45,449 nt of DNA, from assembly GCA_026397315.1 (NCBI GenBank), contig JAPLVC010000007.1, forward strand, positions 1 to 45,449, in the 5' to 3' direction. Positions 17,917-45,449 of this stretch are shown one piece after another. Positions within the stretch are counted from its first letter, which is position 1, and each line of letters opens with the position of its first letter. Below the pieces are notes generated by a model. It saw only the letters and a program-made list of their open reading frames with translations, ran no database searches and had not been told where the DNA came from. This DNA is from Candidatus Aenigmatarchaeota archaeon (GTDB taxonomy: Archaea; Aenigmatarchaeota; Aenigmatarchaeia; QMZP01; QMZT01). The position numbers and the translations under genes were made by a program.

Positions 17917-18381
17917 TCAGTTCACCTGGCCGGTTACGGTGCCTATCTCAGTGTGGTCGAGCCCGCCGGAATTATAGACTATCGCTATCTTTATCGAATA
18001 AGCATTCCCTGGCTTCAGCACAGGCGTCGTCTCGAACTCTATTTGCCTGGACTCGCCTGGCTTCAGTACCAGGTCAACCGGGCTGTACGAGGTGCTCTGG
18101 TCGCCTATGGTCGCCGTTATCGTGCGTATCGTCAGAGGCGTCGAGAGCCGCCCGTTCTCCAGATTCAATATGAATTTGCCGTCGGCGCTTTTCAGCTCCC
18201 AGTCAATCGGGGTTCCCAGCACCTGGAAACCGGTGACCGTCCGCCCCGCGAACATCAGAGGGTTGAACAGGCCCAAACCGTAAAACGCCGCGGCCAGTAT
18301 CACCACGATGAATATGGCCCAGCCATACGACATAAGATATTCCATAGCCGACTGCGCTTTCTCTCTCGCGAACTTTCTCAT
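17917..18381 (-). CDS. Class III signal peptide (pilin-like) protein
   Basis: A 154-residue protein with a typical archaeal class III signal peptide: a basic N terminus (MRKFAREKA), the Q-S-A-x-E-Y-L motif, then a hydrophobic helix (GWAIFIVVILAAAFYG). The A|Q peptide bond before QSAMEYL is the expected prepilin peptidase site. The rest is a beta-rich extracellular domain. Such proteins become subunits of type IV pili-like fibres. An upstream ATG at 18447 would add a non-family leader; the ATG at 18381 follows GGGGGTTGGAGC. Convergent with Fic. Confidence 0.85.
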   Translation of the reverse strand: MRKFAREKAQSAMEYLMSYGWAIFIVVILAAAFYGLGLFNPLMFAGRTVTGFQVLGTPIDWELKSADGKFILNLENGRLSTPLTIRTITATIGDQSTSYSPVDLVLKPGESRQIEFETTPVLKPGNAYSIKIAIVYNSGGLDHTEIGTVTGQVN

Positions 18382-18456
18382 GCTCCAACCCCCGCAACCA
18401 TGATGAGAATAATATGTGAAAATAGAAATAAAAACCCCGAATTTCATTAACTCATT

Positions 18457-39265: not shown

Positions 39266-39439
39266 ATGGAAACAGCCATCAAATACGTCATGATAATATT
39301 CATTCTCATCGTGGTCACTATTATCATAATAGGGCTCCTGTCCGTGTGGACGGGCCAGTCGAGCGACATGGCATCGGGCATAGTCAACTTCTTCAGCGGC
39401 GTTGGACCCGACAACCTCAAGGACGTCCTCAAGAAATAG
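39266..39439 (+). CDS. 57-residue membrane peptide
   Basis: A short open frame (ATG 39266, TAG 39437-39439) with an N-terminal helix AIKYVMIIFILIVVTIIIIG and a polar C terminus with GVGPDNLKDVLKK. It resembles in layout the short proteins at 43234-44313 and may belong with that group, but it is separated by 3.8 kb. A TATA-like AATAAATAG lies about 30 nt upstream. Confidence 0.6.
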   Translation: METAIKYVMIIFILIVVTIIIIGLLSVWTGQSSDMASGIVNFFSGVGPDNLKDVLKK

Positions 39440-39517
39440 CACGCTGGATTGGATGCTGTAGTTTTTTCACAAAAGTCCCAAAACCAACCTTTATAAGCCG
39501 GCCGCCCAAAAATTCAA

Positions 39518-39593
39518 ATATAACGGGGTTATATCTGGGATTGTGAACGTGTATTTCACTTATAAGTAGTGAAAAACGAAAGGTTTATAAACC
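39518..39593. promoter_or_regulatory. Three palindromes upstream of 39622
   Basis: ATATAAC-GGG-GTTATAT (39518-39534), TTTCACT-TATAAGT-AGTGAAA (39554-39574) and GGTTTATAAACC (39582-39593) lie in 76 nt before the ATG at 39622. The last may include the TATA box. Confidence 0.55.
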
Positions 39594-39621
39594 CAAAATC
39601 CAAGTATATTCAGGTGTTTGT

Positions 39622-40275
39622 ATGACGAATGGGCACGCAACAATATTGCATCCAGGACAGGTTCGAAACCTGCCTGACCAGAAGCAGTTATTTGAAGAGC
39701 CTGTAAGTTTTATGAAAAAGCACTGGAAAGGCTTTGCAACTGGCGGGATACTGGCAGCCGGCGGCACGGTGCTTCTCTTGTCAGGCGCGCTCAAAAATGA
39801 CGATCACAAGCCCGGTTATGTGCCGGTAGGCGACACGACAAGCCACAACCAAGTCATGGACAATCCCAATCAATACAGGGACGAGGCGCTTGCGAAAACC
39901 GGTCTAGGGAAGAATGCTGTTTACCTGGGAAATAAACAGAATAATAGTTATGGAGCAAATGATTTTGACCAATGGATTAACCCGAACGACTACAAGGGAA
40001 GCGATAAACTTGTGAACAGGGTTGTAGATGACATAAATGAGACAAACAAACTATATGCCGAAAAATCTCACGGGAAATGGATAGACGAGCCTTTCATGGT
40101 GTCTGAAAAGAAAAAACTTACAGATGAAGAAATATCAGCAACCCATATTCGTGGTATGAGACAAGTCCCAGGGTTTAAAAACATGTATAAAGTTATCATT
40201 GCCAACGCTAAAGGTCGTACTTATGAATGGTTAATAACTGAATTCGAAAATGGTAAATTAATGTCCCGCTACTGA
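39622..40275 (+). CDS. Single-pass membrane protein, hypothetical
   Basis: A 217-residue protein with one membrane helix (about 36-54, GFATGGILAAGGTVLLLSG) and a hydrophilic domain that follows it. The N terminus before the helix is about 35 residues and probably cytoplasmic. AT-rich, with AT content rising across the second half. It is convergent with the large membrane protein gene at 40279 (3 nt apart). No family is recognised. Confidence 0.6.
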   Translation: MTNGHATILHPGQVRNLPDQKQLFEEPVSFMKKHWKGFATGGILAAGGTVLLLSGALKNDDHKPGYVPVGDTTSHNQVMDNPNQYRDEALAKTGLGKNAVYLGNKQNNSYGANDFDQWINPNDYKGSDKLVNRVVDDINETNKLYAEKSHGKWIDEPFMVSEKKKLTDEEISATHIRGMRQVPGFKNMYKVIIANAKGRTYEWLITEFENGKLMSRY

Positions 40276-40278
40276 TTT

Positions 40279-43110
40279 TTAATTGCCCGGCCAATCAGTC
40301 GTATGTTTTGCATAAACTTGCGCGGTGCCGCCCATGGCGTTTATCACTACTGATGAAAATAGCCTTGCTCCGGGTTTTTTAACTACGATTTGAAGCACAA
40401 TATCCGCTATCATAGTACCTGCAAATATCGCAGTTGCTGCTCCAGAAGGTTTAGTATAGCAGTAATTGTGCTTTTCACTTGAGTATGGGCTCTGGTCGGC
40501 ATATATCAATAATGCGTCATTGACAATGCAATTGGTTCCCAATTTGGCATATTTTGTAAATGTCCTAGTTTCAGCCTCTTTGCAATCTTTATTAAAGAAA
40601 ATTGGTTGTTCGACATTCGCAGCGTCACTTCTTAATTGGCAATTGACTAATTTTTTATGAACAATGCCTTCCAAGTTTCCATCTTCATCACCCCACGAAA
40701 CAATGCTTAGTTTGTGAGCAATAGTCAGAATGTCAGGTGTGGTTATACTTTGGAATTCGACTGAATTCACTTTCTGTTCTGATTTTGTTATATTAATTAC
40801 TATATACGTTGTTTCTCCATAATCCGGAATTTCTATAACGCTTTTCAAATCTTTCAATCTGTAAGTAAATAAGATAAAATCGCTTTTATCAACAAATCCC
40901 ATATTATTGCCTGAGCCGAGATTTCCAAGTTCGAAAATGTCGTATTTAGATAAATCGGTTATATCAAACGGTGGTTTATCAATTGCATGTACTTCATTAT
41001 TTTTGCCAACATATTCTATCGCATTCGTCTTTGGATTGTAATAGAAATCTAAATCTGTCACTGGTTCTTTTATATGAATATATTTATCCGGTAAGGTATA
41101 ACTAGGAACTGCAATATCATTTTGTAAAATAGGTATTTTATTGCCGGCAGTGATGTCCGTTATCAAAGTTGTTTCCTTGGAAGCAATTTCAGCTTTCAGA
41201 TTCTTATCTTTCTCCATATTATCTTTATTGATACTGATTAAACCGGTACTGTCAGTAGATGTATATTTATTCATCTCTACATGTGAAAATGGCAAATTTT
41301 CACAAACATCAAATGGTCCTTCTTCAATCCTCTCGCTATAACCTTGGGAGTCTCTTGGCAAGCACTCGATACTTTTTGATTCTATGTCATATTTGTATGA
41401 TCCGCAAGGAACTGGTTTTGGACTTTTAATTATCTGAAGATCGGCCTTGCATGGGGATGCCAGATAAAAAGGCACGTACGCGGGTGCTATTTCTTTTTGC
41501 AGGAAGCTGTAATCCTTTAAAAGTATGATTGGCACGTTGAATCTTGAAACTTTAAATTCTTCTGCCTCATTGGTGAAAAGAGTTCTTTTTTGTAATACGA
41601 GGGAGCCTGGCTTTTCGTAAAATTTGTCATTTATTGCATCCAATTTATATCCAAGAAAATCAATACCCGCCGCTAAGCCTGTAACCTTTAGCGCTCTTGC
41701 ATAATCTTCCCAAGCTGGTGTAAATGCTTTTGTTCCCATGAATTTGTTTAAAATGCCAGTTTTTTTCACGACATCCAGTTTTTCAAAATCTTTTTTAACA
41801 AGCTCTGAAACTTTCGCTATTGCAGTACTTTCGCCTTTATCGAGGGCTTCCTTAACCGCTTTTTCCAATACAGAGTTTCCAATTTCTTTTGAAAGGTAAT
41901 AGGTCGCTAAGCCATCTGCACCTTCAGAAATAACTTTGGTGCCTATTATTTTTCCGGCCAGCTTTTTTTTACCATAAGCTACTATTATCTGTTCTTCTGC
42001 TTCTTGTGTGCTTTTGCCAATAAGTTTAGAAACTAGTTTAGAAACCATATTCTTACTTTTACTTGCGAGGTCCTTCACCTTACCCACAACAAACCTTTTT
42101 CCGGCACCGAAAATTTCGGAGACAGGCAAAGCGTACATGAAAACTGTTTCTGCATTTTCCATCCATGTGGATAATTTCGTCCATCCAACATCCTCGCCTT
42201 CTGGGAATCTTTGCCAGTAAAGTATAAACTGCGGGTCGCCCAATCCTTCAAATAAAACCTTATGTACGTTACTTTCATCGGTAATTATCTGCGGAAGTTG
42301 AAAATTTTTAATTGTGCATTTAGCGTCTTTTTCAAGGCCTACTTTTTCGAGGTTGTTAATGTTATCGATTGTCAAAGTTTCTGATTTTTCATTTTTGTGA
42401 TGAATTATAATTTCATCATCTCCTCCCCTCACGACTGCCTGCTCTAGTATTTTAATGCCAGCACTGTATCTGCTTTTCTCTGGCTGATTTTTGTCTATTG
42501 CGCCGATTTCATTGCCAATCCACAGGTGTATTTCATCAACACCAGAAAACATTGAATTCATACTCGAAACGGTTTTGTATTCATAAAATTTCTCGCCGCA
42601 ATCGGGACATTTAGATTTCCATTCACCGCTATCGAATACGTACCAAACATTCTCGTGATCACATGCGGGGTTTAAAGTTCCGCAGTCTTCATCATATTCT
42701 AACTCAGGGTAACCGCTTTTCAAGTCACAATAAAGGGATGCATCACTTGGTGCTGATTGTGTCTGAGTTTGGGAGTTTTGCGTGGCGGTAGCATCCGCGG
42801 CAGCATTGCCTGTCACAGTCGCACCGTTAGGTGAGTTTTTAATAATACCTGCACATTGTTCATCGCCAGTAAAAACAGTGTCTATCGCACACTTCAACAT
42901 CTGTGTAGACTGCTTGGCGCTTTCGTAATCCACTGTCGAAACTTTACCTGTGCACAGGGCGGGTATTTTGTCACAGATACCGTCGAGTATGGAGTTGATG
43001 CCGCCCGACTGGGCGATGATGAAGCCTATGACAAGAAACGTGAAAACCAGGGCGATTAGGATTTCAAAAGGCGGCTGGGCGATGAAACTGTCTCCCTTCC
43101 TCTTACCCAT
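40279..43110 (-). CDS. Large membrane-anchored protein of unknown function
   Basis: A 943-residue protein with an N-terminal membrane helix (about 12-32, PPFEILIALVFTFLVIGFII), then a mostly polar region. A zinc-ribbon-like segment lies near 160 (CDHENVWYVFDSGEWKSKCPDCG), a helical basic segment near 350-440, and a C-terminal hydrophobic region (AATAIFAGTMIADIVLQIV). The in-frame ATG at 43200 is possible, but a TATA-like AATATAAAG about 25-35 nt before the ATG at 43110 favours that start. It faces away from the membrane-peptide cluster, which starts 124 nt beyond its start on the other strand. No family is recognised. Confidence 0.65.
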   Translation of the reverse strand: MGKRKGDSFIAQPPFEILIALVFTFLVIGFIIAQSGGINSILDGICDKIPALCTGKVSTVDYESAKQSTQMLKCAIDTVFTGDEQCAGIIKNSPNGATVTGNAAADATATQNSQTQTQSAPSDASLYCDLKSGYPELEYDEDCGTLNPACDHENVWYVFDSGEWKSKCPDCGEKFYEYKTVSSMNSMFSGVDEIHLWIGNEIGAIDKNQPEKSRYSAGIKILEQAVVRGGDDEIIIHHKNEKSETLTIDNINNLEKVGLEKDAKCTIKNFQLPQIITDESNVHKVLFEGLGDPQFILYWQRFPEGEDVGWTKLSTWMENAETVFMYALPVSEIFGAGKRFVVGKVKDLASKSKNMVSKLVSKLIGKSTQEAEEQIIVAYGKKKLAGKIIGTKVISEGADGLATYYLSKEIGNSVLEKAVKEALDKGESTAIAKVSELVKKDFEKLDVVKKTGILNKFMGTKAFTPAWEDYARALKVTGLAAGIDFLGYKLDAINDKFYEKPGSLVLQKRTLFTNEAEEFKVSRFNVPIILLKDYSFLQKEIAPAYVPFYLASPCKADLQIIKSPKPVPCGSYKYDIESKSIECLPRDSQGYSERIEEGPFDVCENLPFSHVEMNKYTSTDSTGLISINKDNMEKDKNLKAEIASKETTLITDITAGNKIPILQNDIAVPSYTLPDKYIHIKEPVTDLDFYYNPKTNAIEYVGKNNEVHAIDKPPFDITDLSKYDIFELGNLGSGNNMGFVDKSDFILFTYRLKDLKSVIEIPDYGETTYIVINITKSEQKVNSVEFQSITTPDILTIAHKLSIVSWGDEDGNLEGIVHKKLVNCQLRSDAANVEQPIFFNKDCKEAETRTFTKYAKLGTNCIVNDALLIYADQSPYSSEKHNYCYTKPSGAATAIFAGTMIADIVLQIVVKKPGARLFSSVVINAMGGTAQVYAKHTTDWPGN

Positions 43111-43233
43111 GAATATGTATGTGCAGCCTTTCTTTATATTGGTTTGATACGGGCGCATCCGAACTGCCAAAAGCCCCGCCAGCGCCGCAACAATAACCAA
43201 AGTTTAAATAGAGCCTAGCCCCAAATATTCATT

Positions 43234-43509
43234 ATGAACACATCATTGGAAATCGTGGTCGTGGCAATCATCCTTCTGGTCGTGGCGCTGGTTCTTCTGA
43301 CGATATTCGGAACTGGCATGACACCATTCGGTGCTTTCACAAGCAACAAAAATGTATGCATACAACAATACGACTCTTCGTGCAAAGCTACTGGTAATGA
43401 TCCTGTGGATTGGGGAGTCGCTAAATACAAGGACTCTAAAGGGGTTTTGCAAGCGTGCTCGACTCTTGCCAAGTGTTCATGCATCAATAACGTCGCCTCG
43501 TGCACCTAA
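43234..43509 (+). CDS. Short pilin-like membrane protein, Cys-rich
   Basis: A 91-residue protein with an N-terminal hydrophobic helix directly at the start (LEIVVVAIILLVVALVLLT) and a small extracellular domain with six Cys (CIQQYDSSC, CSTLAKCSC, C). The shape is that of a pilin, but no class III leader (Q-x-S-x-E) is visible. It begins about 25 nt after a TATA-like TTTAAATA. The N terminus is almost identical to that of the next protein. Confidence 0.65.
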   Translation: MNTSLEIVVVAIILLVVALVLLTIFGTGMTPFGAFTSNKNVCIQQYDSSCKATGNDPVDWGVAKYKDSKGVLQACSTLAKCSCINNVASCT

Positions 43510-43559
43510 ACTTCAAACTCCTTTCTTTTATTTATACCAATTTATTACAAGTATTACTT

Positions 43560-43991
43560 ATGAGAATGGCCCTTGAGATTGTGGTCGTGACTATCATACT
43601 TCTTGTCGTGGCGATTGTGGTACTCATGTTTTTCGCCAACGGCATGCGTGCCGGCGTCGACATGACGGACGCGAGGAACCAGTGCATTACCATGGCCTCG
43701 GCCTCGTGCAAGTCGCTGAAGGTCTTGCCTCCGACATGGTTTGTGCCGACGGTCACCGTTGAAGGGAAGACCGCACCGGAAAGCTGCGACGATATAACAG
43801 AGGGAGCCTACAAAGATTGCAGTAAATTTGGCGTGACCGGAGGCGGCGCGACGACAGGCGGAACGACGACGATAACCACGAACACACAGTGCACGACAGC
43901 ATTATACACTTGCGAGGCCTCGTGCACTGCACCCAAGACGCAAAAAGGGACATGCGATGCCGACCCCGCCAAGAAAGCGTGCTGCGGCTGA
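43560..43991 (+). CDS. Short pilin-like membrane protein, second copy
   Basis: A 143-residue paralogue of the preceding protein. Its first about 26 residues (LEIVVVTIILLVVAIVVLMF) match closely, followed by GMRAG and an extracellular domain with about ten Cys, a Gly/Thr-rich spacer (GGGATTGGTTTITTN) and a Cys-rich tail ending CCG. The start is ATG 43560, in keeping with the paralogue. The pair probably arose by duplication and then changed outside the helix. Confidence 0.68.
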   Translation: MRMALEIVVVTIILLVVAIVVLMFFANGMRAGVDMTDARNQCITMASASCKSLKVLPPTWFVPTVTVEGKTAPESCDDITEGAYKDCSKFGVTGGGATTGGTTTITTNTQCTTALYTCEASCTAPKTQKGTCDADPAKKACCG

Positions 43992-44006
43992 TAGCGGGAA
44001 TGTGAG

Positions 44007-44126
44007 ATGATGCAAATGATGAAAGGGCAAAGTGATATCGTGGCCTCAGGCCTGCCCATATTCGCGATGGTCGTGCTGATAGTCCTTATCATACTGGTGG
44101 CCGTGAGGATTTTCGGCGGCGGATGA
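44007..44126 (+). CDS. 39-residue membrane peptide
   Basis: ATG 44007 to TGA 44124-44126. MMQMMKGQSDIV precedes the helix PIFAMVVLIVLIILVAVRIF and a Gly-rich end. GTGAG lies just upstream. It ends 1 nt before the next ATG, so the two genes are translationally linked. Real but short; function unknown. Confidence 0.6.
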   Translation: MMQMMKGQSDIVASGLPIFAMVVLIVLIILVAVRIFGGG

Positions 44127-44127
44127 A

Positions 44128-44313
44128 ATGGTGAAAAACTTGGAAAGGGAAACCGGCAAAACGGGGAAAAAGAAGGGCTTCATAATATTCATGGGTCTCA
44201 ACATGTGGGTCGAAATCCTGCTCATGATAGTCCTGACGTTCATACTCATAGCGGTCATAGACGCTCTTTCTGGCTACAGGATTGGCTTCCTGAGCATACT
44301 GGGAATAAAATAG
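44128..44313 (+). CDS. 61-residue membrane peptide
   Basis: A 61-residue protein with a basic first 25 residues (LERETGKTGKKKG) and a membrane helix (WVEILLMIVLTFILIAVI), ending with YRIGFLSILGIK. It follows the 39-residue gene directly (one-base gap). The helix begins W-V-E-I-L, like the L-E-I-V of the pilin-like pair, and may be of the same group. Confidence 0.6.
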   Translation: MVKNLERETGKTGKKKGFIIFMGLNMWVEILLMIVLTFILIAVIDALSGYRIGFLSILGIK

Positions 44314-44360
44314 AATCAGTCAAATACGGATATAATTATAATTGCATACAATTATTAACT

Positions 44361-44942
44361 ATGAAAAAAGCCTCTTCGTCATCCATCATGACATTCAGGC
44401 TGGTTATATCCCTCATCCTCGGAATTTTTGTGATTGTTCTTCTCATCAGAGGCATAAACGAGCAGGTATACGGTGCCTGCTGGAGCCAGGCGAAATACGC
44501 CTTCGAGGAGCTGAAGGATGGGGAAAACGACATCGTGCTGGGCGATTGCATAGTCAATGCCTACTTGGTCCCCAAAGACGGACTTGACGCCCTAAGGGCT
44601 CAGGACGTGAACATATTCAGCTGCGCCAAGAGGAACGACCCGGAATATTTCTCTTTTGCCATAATCAGGCCTAACAGCGACGTGAAGGTGACTGAAATAA
44701 TCGAGAGCGGCGGCAAGAAAATAACCCAGACCATGCTTGAAACGTATTGCGTCGGATACAGATACAAGCTGAACACCATGAGCCTGAATATTTTTGAAGG
44801 CAAGAAGAGCTATTGCATAAAGCTCGATCGGGTAAGCGGCAGCACCGACTCGAACGACAAGTATGTAAGCATAAGGGAAGGCGCATGCTCTGCATCATTT
44901 TCAGGAGGAGCATCGGGCGGAGCCGGAGCAAGCAAATCTTAA
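44361..44942 (+). CDS. Membrane-anchored extracellular protein
   Basis: A 193-residue protein with an N-terminal membrane helix (about 12-34, RLVISLILGIFVIVLLIRG), then an extracellular domain of about 150 residues with several Cys (C near 41, 64 and 91) and a Gly/Ala/Ser-rich C terminus (GGASGGAGAS). The ATG at 44361 is chosen; the open frame runs upstream through an unrelated region. Same strand and layout as its neighbours. Confidence 0.6.
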   Translation: MKKASSSSIMTFRLVISLILGIFVIVLLIRGINEQVYGACWSQAKYAFEELKDGENDIVLGDCIVNAYLVPKDGLDALRAQDVNIFSCAKRNDPEYFSFAIIRPNSDVKVTEIIESGGKKITQTMLETYCVGYRYKLNTMSLNIFEGKKSYCIKLDRVSGSTDSNDKYVSIREGACSASFSGGASGGAGASKS

Positions 44943-44969
44943 TAATTATAACGGAAGGCGGGTGTTAGA

Positions 44970-45449
44970 TTGGGAGAAACTGAAGAGGATGTTCTCGAAG
45001 CCCTCGCGATGGTCATAATAGTTGTCCTGGGCCTGATAGTGCTGATCGTATCGATAATGCCCAGTAGTTTTACCGGCACCAGCGCCGGGGCGTTTGCTGT
45101 GGCGACTGGCATATCATATTCTATAAGCGGGCTGTCGCTAGCGGACGAAGGCTCGATGACAAGATATCTCAACGGCAGCTACGACATCGAGATAGGCCTG
45201 GAAGAGGATTCTGACGGTCCCCTGAAGAATTATTACATAAGGGCGACGGCTTACGGAAAAGGAAACCCGCTCAGCCCTATAGACAAGATAATTTTCATAG
45301 GCGACATGCAGCTGGACAAAGACCCGACAAAACTGGTAAACGTCACGTACATCAGCCTCACGAAAAGCTACGGCAAGCCTGTCAGGATAGTCAAGACCAC
45401 GGAAACTCGCTTCTCGGACGCCCTTTGCAAAGAGCCGACGCCTGAGAAA
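44970..45449 (+). CDS. Membrane-anchored protein, truncated by window end
   Basis: The frame opens at TTG 44970 and continues off the end of the window (at least 160 residues). GGAAGGCGGG lies about 8-17 nt upstream. The protein has a short acidic start (GETEEDVLEALAM), a membrane helix (VIIVVLGLIVLIVSIM) and an extracellular domain with G-rich and YIRATAYGKGN segments. It continues the run of membrane proteins. Confidence 0.55.
   Translation, partial: MGETEEDVLEALAMVIIVVLGLIVLIVSIMPSSFTGTSAGAFAVATGISYSISGLSLADEGSMTRYLNGSYDIEIGLEEDSDGPLKNYYIRATAYGKGNPLSPIDKIIFIGDMQLDKDPTKLVNVTYISLTKSYGKPVRIVKTTETRFSDALCKEPTPEK

Follow-up and report, generated by a model that had tools for sequence, protein, structure and literature searches.

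Genes at the locus

The stretch of DNA analysed here (the window, 45,449 bases) is the start of the 166-kb contig C6 (JAPLVC010000007.1) of a Candidatus Aenigmatarchaeota archaeon, and its right-hand end carries a cluster of genes for membrane-helix proteins, which we describe as a putative pilin operon bearing murein-hydrolase domains. The source genome comprises 1.05 Mb in 7 contigs and is estimated to be 91% complete; the genomes of relatives range from 0.4 to 1.9 Mb. These sizes, together with archaeal hallmarks such as an Alba gene close behind the operon, suggest a small-genome, DPANN-like archaeon. An earlier note on this DNA had named open reading frames of 57, 943, 91, 143, 39, 61 and 193 aa, together with one that starts at 44970 and is cut by the end of the window, and all of these were present where it placed them. 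It had also supposed that the system continues past the window, and the same-strand run indeed reaches position 48941.

The distal part of the cluster, entirely on the forward strand, is formed by members of five core operon families, here named p193, sltN, p260, m23N and pgbN. Leaders were defined as a short basic stretch ending in [KR][GA] directly ahead of a hydrophobic helix (class III-like), and a slash marks their end below. The p193 gene (44361..44942), the first of these five order-conserved genes, encodes a putative minor pilin scaffold of 193 aa with the leader MKKA/SSSS. The sltN gene (44970..45977, with 44970..45449 inside the window) encodes a putative minor pilin scaffold that carries an SLT transglycosylase domain at residues 173-256 and has no canonical leader. 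Beyond the window, p260 (45981-46763) has no recognised domain, m23N (46750-47781) carries a Peptidase_M23 domain and pgbN (47775-48941) a PG_binding_1 domain; all three have a leader. The products of sltN, p260, m23N and pgbN each start with one hydrophobic helix.

Ahead of these genes and on the same strand, we found two Cys-rich pilins of the shared-helix ("sle") family, of 91 aa (43234..43509) and 143 aa (43560..43991), both without a leader. They are followed by a 39-aa prepilin (44007..44126; MMQMMKG/QSDIVASGLPIFAMVV...), which is a candidate major (Flp-like) pilin, and by a 61-aa single-helix peptide (44128..44313) with the leader KKKG/FIIF ahead of its helix. Short KG-leader peptides were also present in other loci, and a hidden Markov model (HMM) search with the 61-aa peptide gave no relatives. 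Further upstream, p57 (39266..39439, forward strand) encodes a short, all-helical, pilin-like protein of 57 aa (METAIKYVMIIF...) without a leader, a candidate filament subunit that was found again in most related loci. The 943-aa anchored protein (40279..43110, reverse strand, ATG start) has the leader KRKG/DSFI and is a candidate large tip or adhesin pilin, in which a Pfam scan gave no domain.

Shared-helix pilins and prepilin leaders

In a BLASTP comparison (E 2e-07), the 91- and 143-aa proteins were 47% identical across 62 residues, which bears out the shared helix described in the earlier note. As the similarity runs past the helix and through a C-x7-C motif, it reflects more than common hydrophobicity. 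The two proteins start with MNTSLEIVV and MRMALEIVV, respectively; shared-helix homologues in sister families have leaders (MRG/LHTSLVIVV, MKG/LSLTLTIVI and MKKG/VSLAINQ), and the leaderless state of the copies studied here looks derived. Class III leaders, which the earlier note had found missing from the shared-helix pair, are indeed lacking in the 91-, 143- and 57-aa proteins and in the SLT protein, but they are present in the 39-, 61-, 193- and 943-aa proteins and in the products of the three genes past the window. A diversity cassette, also suggested at that time, finds weak support in the number of shared-helix pilins, which ranges from 1 to 3 among related genomes.

Among the core families, leaders were counted in 31 of 32 m23N, 31 of 32 pgbN, 24 of 31 p193, 21 of 30 sltN and 30 of 46 p260 proteins. 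Under a uniform rule, a leader was present in 134 of 168 core-family proteins, versus 17 of 73 other proteins with an N-terminal transmembrane segment encoded in the same regions (Fisher p 1e-16, a value that overstates independence because the compared sequences are related). Several of these control proteins are recognisable pilins.

Conserved operon order in relatives

Operon homologues were found with iterated profiles across genomes of the same order. The order p193-sltN-p260-m23N-pgbN was kept in approximately 30 of these genomes, and homologues of the 943-aa protein, of the 57-aa peptide and of the shared-helix pilins were observed around this conserved core. Those of the 943-aa protein adjoin the operon in 24 genomes and measure up to 1483 aa, some being ended by contig edges. 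Enzyme-free short forms of the core proteins exist, which indicates that the conserved part consists of the helix and a small ectodomain. In m23N, the M23 domain is inserted between a conserved "DDRGTE" part and an "IPLPG" tail, and this tail stays where the domain is absent; this arrangement points to structural proteins with grafted domains.

In a 7-contig assembly estimated to be 91% complete, unrelated small membrane proteins might cluster by chance, or bacterial genes might enter an archaeal bin through misassembly or contamination. We give almost no credence to such an origin, which is already refuted by the conserved synteny: the order recurs in the approximately 30 related genomes, in many of them beside a conserved archaeal Alba gene, and the enzyme domains lie within archaeal scaffolds with conserved N- and C-terminal parts.

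Murein-hydrolase domains

The Pfam matches in the operon studied here were all above cut-off (SLT, 1.3e-15; M23, 5.5e-27; PG_binding_1, 7.9e-8), and the catalytic motifs are retained (ES...GFMQ...YNCG for SLT; HGGID, YGHM and HLHF for M23). The whole genome contains a single M23 and a single SLT domain, both located in this operon, and neither family was matched in the four archaea of a control set of 14 genomes. A Mur_ligase match was rejected as an indication of wall synthesis; FolC (345 bits) is the only Mur-ligase-like gene, and nothing pointed to murein synthesis, as far as a genome that is 91% complete can tell.

Among the 95 sltN, m23N and pgbN proteins scanned, M23 was found in 16 and SLT in 13. 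SLT is located on sltN in 11 genomes, including the source genome, on pgbN in G023 and G027, and on p260 in G014, where the match (20.1 bits) is slightly below cut-off. In m23N, M23 is present in the ATPase- and platform-linked loci of G012 and G016 and is replaced by M15, beside the platform gene, in G014; VanY was observed on pgbN in G036. In another family of the class (G053, L167:12036-14411), a pgbN-like prepilin with an SKG leader carries both SLT and Amidase_2 inside a pilin cluster. Moreover, M23-bearing proteins of family f6, most of them with a KG leader, occur in ATPase and/or platform loci (G060, G115, G112 and G124). Nearly every SLT-bearing operon also encodes a murein peptidase. 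Judged by their distribution, the predicted murein-hydrolase domains are optional, exchangeable modules on different pilin scaffolds. The tree of M23 domains hints at at least two origins, with weak support and a biased bacterial sample. Since unrelated enzymes whose common substrate is murein have been grafted repeatedly, we argue that murein cutting is under selection. In G033 (L162:5755-6429), the sltN scaffold has a Biotin_lipoyl domain (7.6e-12) in place of SLT.

The domains might also have been co-opted for a different polymer or only for binding, involving, for example, the cell's own S-layer glycan, an archaeal host sugar or the assembly of the fibre, and murein would then not be the substrate. 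Such domains can in principle act on other bonds (PMC12352652). An SLT-like pilin of G019 (L158:4075-4638, prepilin-like, MPKKG leader) points the same way, in that its catalytic Glu appears to be replaced by Gly (KVGSDF), and this enzyme may possibly have turned into a binding module. We nevertheless consider a substrate other than murein quite improbable: the catalytic motifs are kept in the copies studied here and in most relatives, murein is the known substrate common to M23, M15, VanY, amidase and SLT, and a PG_binding_1 domain lies within the same operon.

Motor, platform and prepilin peptidase

The homologous gene set adjoins a T2SSE ATPase and/or a T2SSF platform gene, orthologous between loci, in 17 genomes. 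In G009 (L155), the genes, all on one strand, encode an ATPase, a platform protein, a short prepilin, a homologue of the 943-aa protein, p57, a shared-helix pilin, p193, sltN, p260, m23N and pgbN. The same arrangement was observed in G012, G016 and G018, with p260 undetected in G012, and from the platform gene onward in G014. Homologous pilin genes also lie beside this ATPase and/or platform gene in more distant families (G047, G053, G054, G060, G079, G081, G085, G112, G115, G124, G139 and G141). Together with the order kept in some 30 genomes, these 17 loci run counter to what the earlier note had named as refuting its reading, namely the lack of a nearby ATPase, peptidase or platform gene and of a conserved order in relatives.

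The source genome holds several T2SSE and T2SSF genes. On contig C3, we identified a TadA/CpaF-like ATPase of 751 aa (C3:28114-30369) and a two-module platform protein of T2SSF/TadC type, of 704 aa (C3:36346-38460; above the PF00482 cut-off). Contig C7 encodes a putative A24 prepilin peptidase, in which a GDGD motif is present (C7:111102-111431; above the PF01478 cut-off, with the NCBIfam FlaK model below its cut-off). Identity between the C3 ATPase and the compared operon-linked ATPases of relatives was 54-73%, versus 25-28% for the other tested T2SSEs of its own genome, and its nearest PDB structures are archaeal GspE (2oap) and CpaF. Within the class, 148 of 156 genomes encode an orthologue of the 704-aa platform. 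From the linkage and orthology in relatives, it appears that the motor and the pilins of the source genome merely lie on different contigs.

That the system is an archaellum or a conjugation-like type IV secretion apparatus, and not a type IV pilus, seems very unlikely. FlaI and VirB11 models do score on the ATPase, and some type IV secretion systems employ the lytic transglycosylase VirB1. However, the best model for the ATPase is of the TadA family, FlaI reached 127 bits versus a cut-off of 550, and FlaH was not seen on inspection of complete loci. Moreover, the VirB4 family PF03135 was unmatched in the source genome (approximately 91% complete). On the FlaI score and the unmatched PF03135, both assignments were rejected.

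In G002, a T2SSE-TadC-TadC locus situated approximately 4 kb away from the operon was considered as the motor and rejected; it resembles the C7 locus, which has pilins of its own, and does not belong to the linked type. This second pilus locus of the source genome (L050:6512-11353) encodes two class III prepilins, an ATPase and two TadC-like platform proteins, and the G002 locus is likely to be its orthologue. Between the ATPase and platform genes on C3 lies a gene for a 1950-aa Cys-rich protein (L053:10438-16290), a candidate surface adhesin.

Proposed machine and its use

By each feature examined, namely the leaders, the linked ATPase, the platform and the A24 peptidase, the predicted machine belongs to the type IV filament superfamily, and its identity as a pilus is well supported at the level of sequence. 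Sequence comparison likewise establishes the gene set and order, the leaders, the enzyme domains with their catalytic motifs, the orthology and linkage of the ATPase and platform, and the modularity; filament formation, tip position, catalysis, a bacterial target and a benefit are what we infer. The earlier description of the cluster as fibre subunits or a secretion machine was largely right, in view of the conserved order, the linked ATPase and platform in relatives, and the orthologues and peptidase in the source genome. The hydrolase and binding domains on three minor pilins, which reach past the end of the window, were not visible to its author. Overall, the cluster is probably an operon for the pilins and minor pilins that make up a Tad-like, archaeal type IV filament, with a hydrolase tip that breaches the walls of neighbouring bacteria.

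In such a machine, prepilins would be inserted with the N-terminus inside and the C-terminus outside, those with a leader would be trimmed by the A24 peptidase, and the C3 ATPase and two-module platform would push the fibre outward. The short all-helical peptides of 39, 61 and 57 aa might build or adapt the shaft, with the two Cys-rich shared-helix proteins serving as further pilins. The tip would consist of p193, sltN, p260, m23N and pgbN, probably with the 943-aa protein, and would display the SLT lytic transglycosylase, the M23 endopeptidase and the murein-binding domain. Given this combination, we propose a tip that is able to bind to murein and to cleave its glycan strands as well as its peptide cross-links. 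As no murein-making genes were recognised in the archaeon, the target would be the wall of neighbouring bacteria, to which the pilus may anchor and which it may open locally for attachment, feeding or killing.

The same pilus could instead be an adhesive or competence-type fibre that acts on bacterial debris or biofilm, with hydrolases that free murein fragments or open dead cells. The sequence evidence is identical for such feeding or DNA capture, exposed hydrolases need not kill, and in many microbes type IV filaments have roles in DNA uptake and adhesion. Pfam, however, recognised no DNA-binding or competence protein in the operon, and the pairing of several hydrolase classes on one tip would better fit wall opening; we thus regard this use as unlikely.

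Several observations weigh against a wall-breaching pilus. In the source genome, the ATPase and platform genes are unlinked to the operon, and two other pilus-type motors are present. No canonical leader is present on the pilins at 43234, 43560 and 39266 or on the SLT protein. For p193 and the sltN scaffold, single-sequence AlphaFold models (pLDDT 57 and 47, respectively) exhibited an N-terminal helix followed by beta strands, with a long helix and a beta domain in p193, but their quality is insufficient to establish a pilin fold. Approximately 14 operons of the order have no detectable murein-hydrolase domain, so that the machine should have another base function, at least there, and the apparent loss of the catalytic Glu in G019 must also be considered.

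What is new is that minor pilins appear to bear murein hydrolases in an archaeon without a sign of murein. We suggest, tentatively, that the Tad-like pilus of this archaeal phylum, with its interchangeable hydrolase tips, might be a contact weapon or docking needle that pierces living bacteria, in which case bacteria too could be hosts or prey. This bears on two questions, the dependence of small archaea with few genes on bacteria and their way into a walled cell, for which an exchangeable hydrolase tip would be a concrete device. Minor pilins, moreover, may act as scaffolds for catalytic domains, and the enzyme repertoire may predict the type of partner.

Comparison with known systems

Archaeal type IV pili are described as comprising a VirB11/TadA-like ATPase, a FlaJ/TadC-like platform, pilins and minor pilins with class III signals, predicted adhesins and an A24 (PibD/FlaK) peptidase (Makarova, Koonin & Albers 2016, PMC4858521), components that are common to both systems. 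Unlike in those pili, catalytic and murein-binding domains are here fused to minor pilins, transglycosylases being unmentioned in PMC4858521, and at 751 and 704 aa, respectively, the ATPase and the platform are long. The likeness to the minor pseudopilins of type II secretion systems and type IV pili lies in the joint encoding of several proteins that combine an N-terminal helix with a small ectodomain, in a conserved order with ATPase and platform; however, the scaffold parts of the scanned proteins gave no significant Pfam or NCBIfam match.

The nearest working analogue is the Kil Tad pilus of Myxococcus, which has a role in bacterial prey contact and needs its minor-pilin tips, which bear variable domains, for contact killing (PMC12075869, PMC8460266). 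Both systems combine a TadA/CpaF-type motor, short Flp-like pilins and a minor-pilin tip complex with variable domains. The Kil system differs in being bacterial and in that killing also needs a needleless type III secretion system. Moreover, the enzymes are here fused to pilins, and neither peptidoglycan nor hydrolase is mentioned in PMC12075869.

The nearest enzymological precedent is provided by archaeal murein hydrolases that kill bacteria, such as Woldo of Halogranum salarium (PMC12352652). There too, murein-less archaea encode M23 and PG_binding_1, for which an action on bacteria has been demonstrated or proposed. Those hydrolases are single modular chains with catalytic and wall-binding parts, whereas SLT, M23 and PG_binding_1 lie here on three separate membrane-anchored minor pilins. 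The proteins studied here thus fall outside the definition of modular archaeal peptidoglycan hydrolases used by Strock et al. (both domains in one protein; PMC12352652), and a class with its domains split over separate proteins is missed by such a filter. The cluster would add this overlooked class to the archaeal murein hydrolases. A literature search, with subscription journals mostly outside its reach, gave no paper joining pilus and murein hydrolases in archaea.

Neighbouring genes

Between p57 and the 943-aa gene, and convergent with the latter, lies a gene for a membrane-anchored protein of 217 aa (39622..40275, forward strand), which was absent from the earlier list and whose membership in the cluster is uncertain. 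An HMM search gave no relatives of this protein; proteins of similar size occupy its position in G021 and G028, with no sequence similarity detected. An Alba-type chromatin gene is located just 3' of the operon (L002:6080-6430; C6 approximately 49080-49430), and in many of the examined genomes, even across families, the pilus operon has such a gene as its neighbour on the downstream side. Elsewhere in the window, a separate pilin-like protein of class III type is encoded at 17917-18447 on the reverse strand (KAQSAMEYLMSYGWAIF...).
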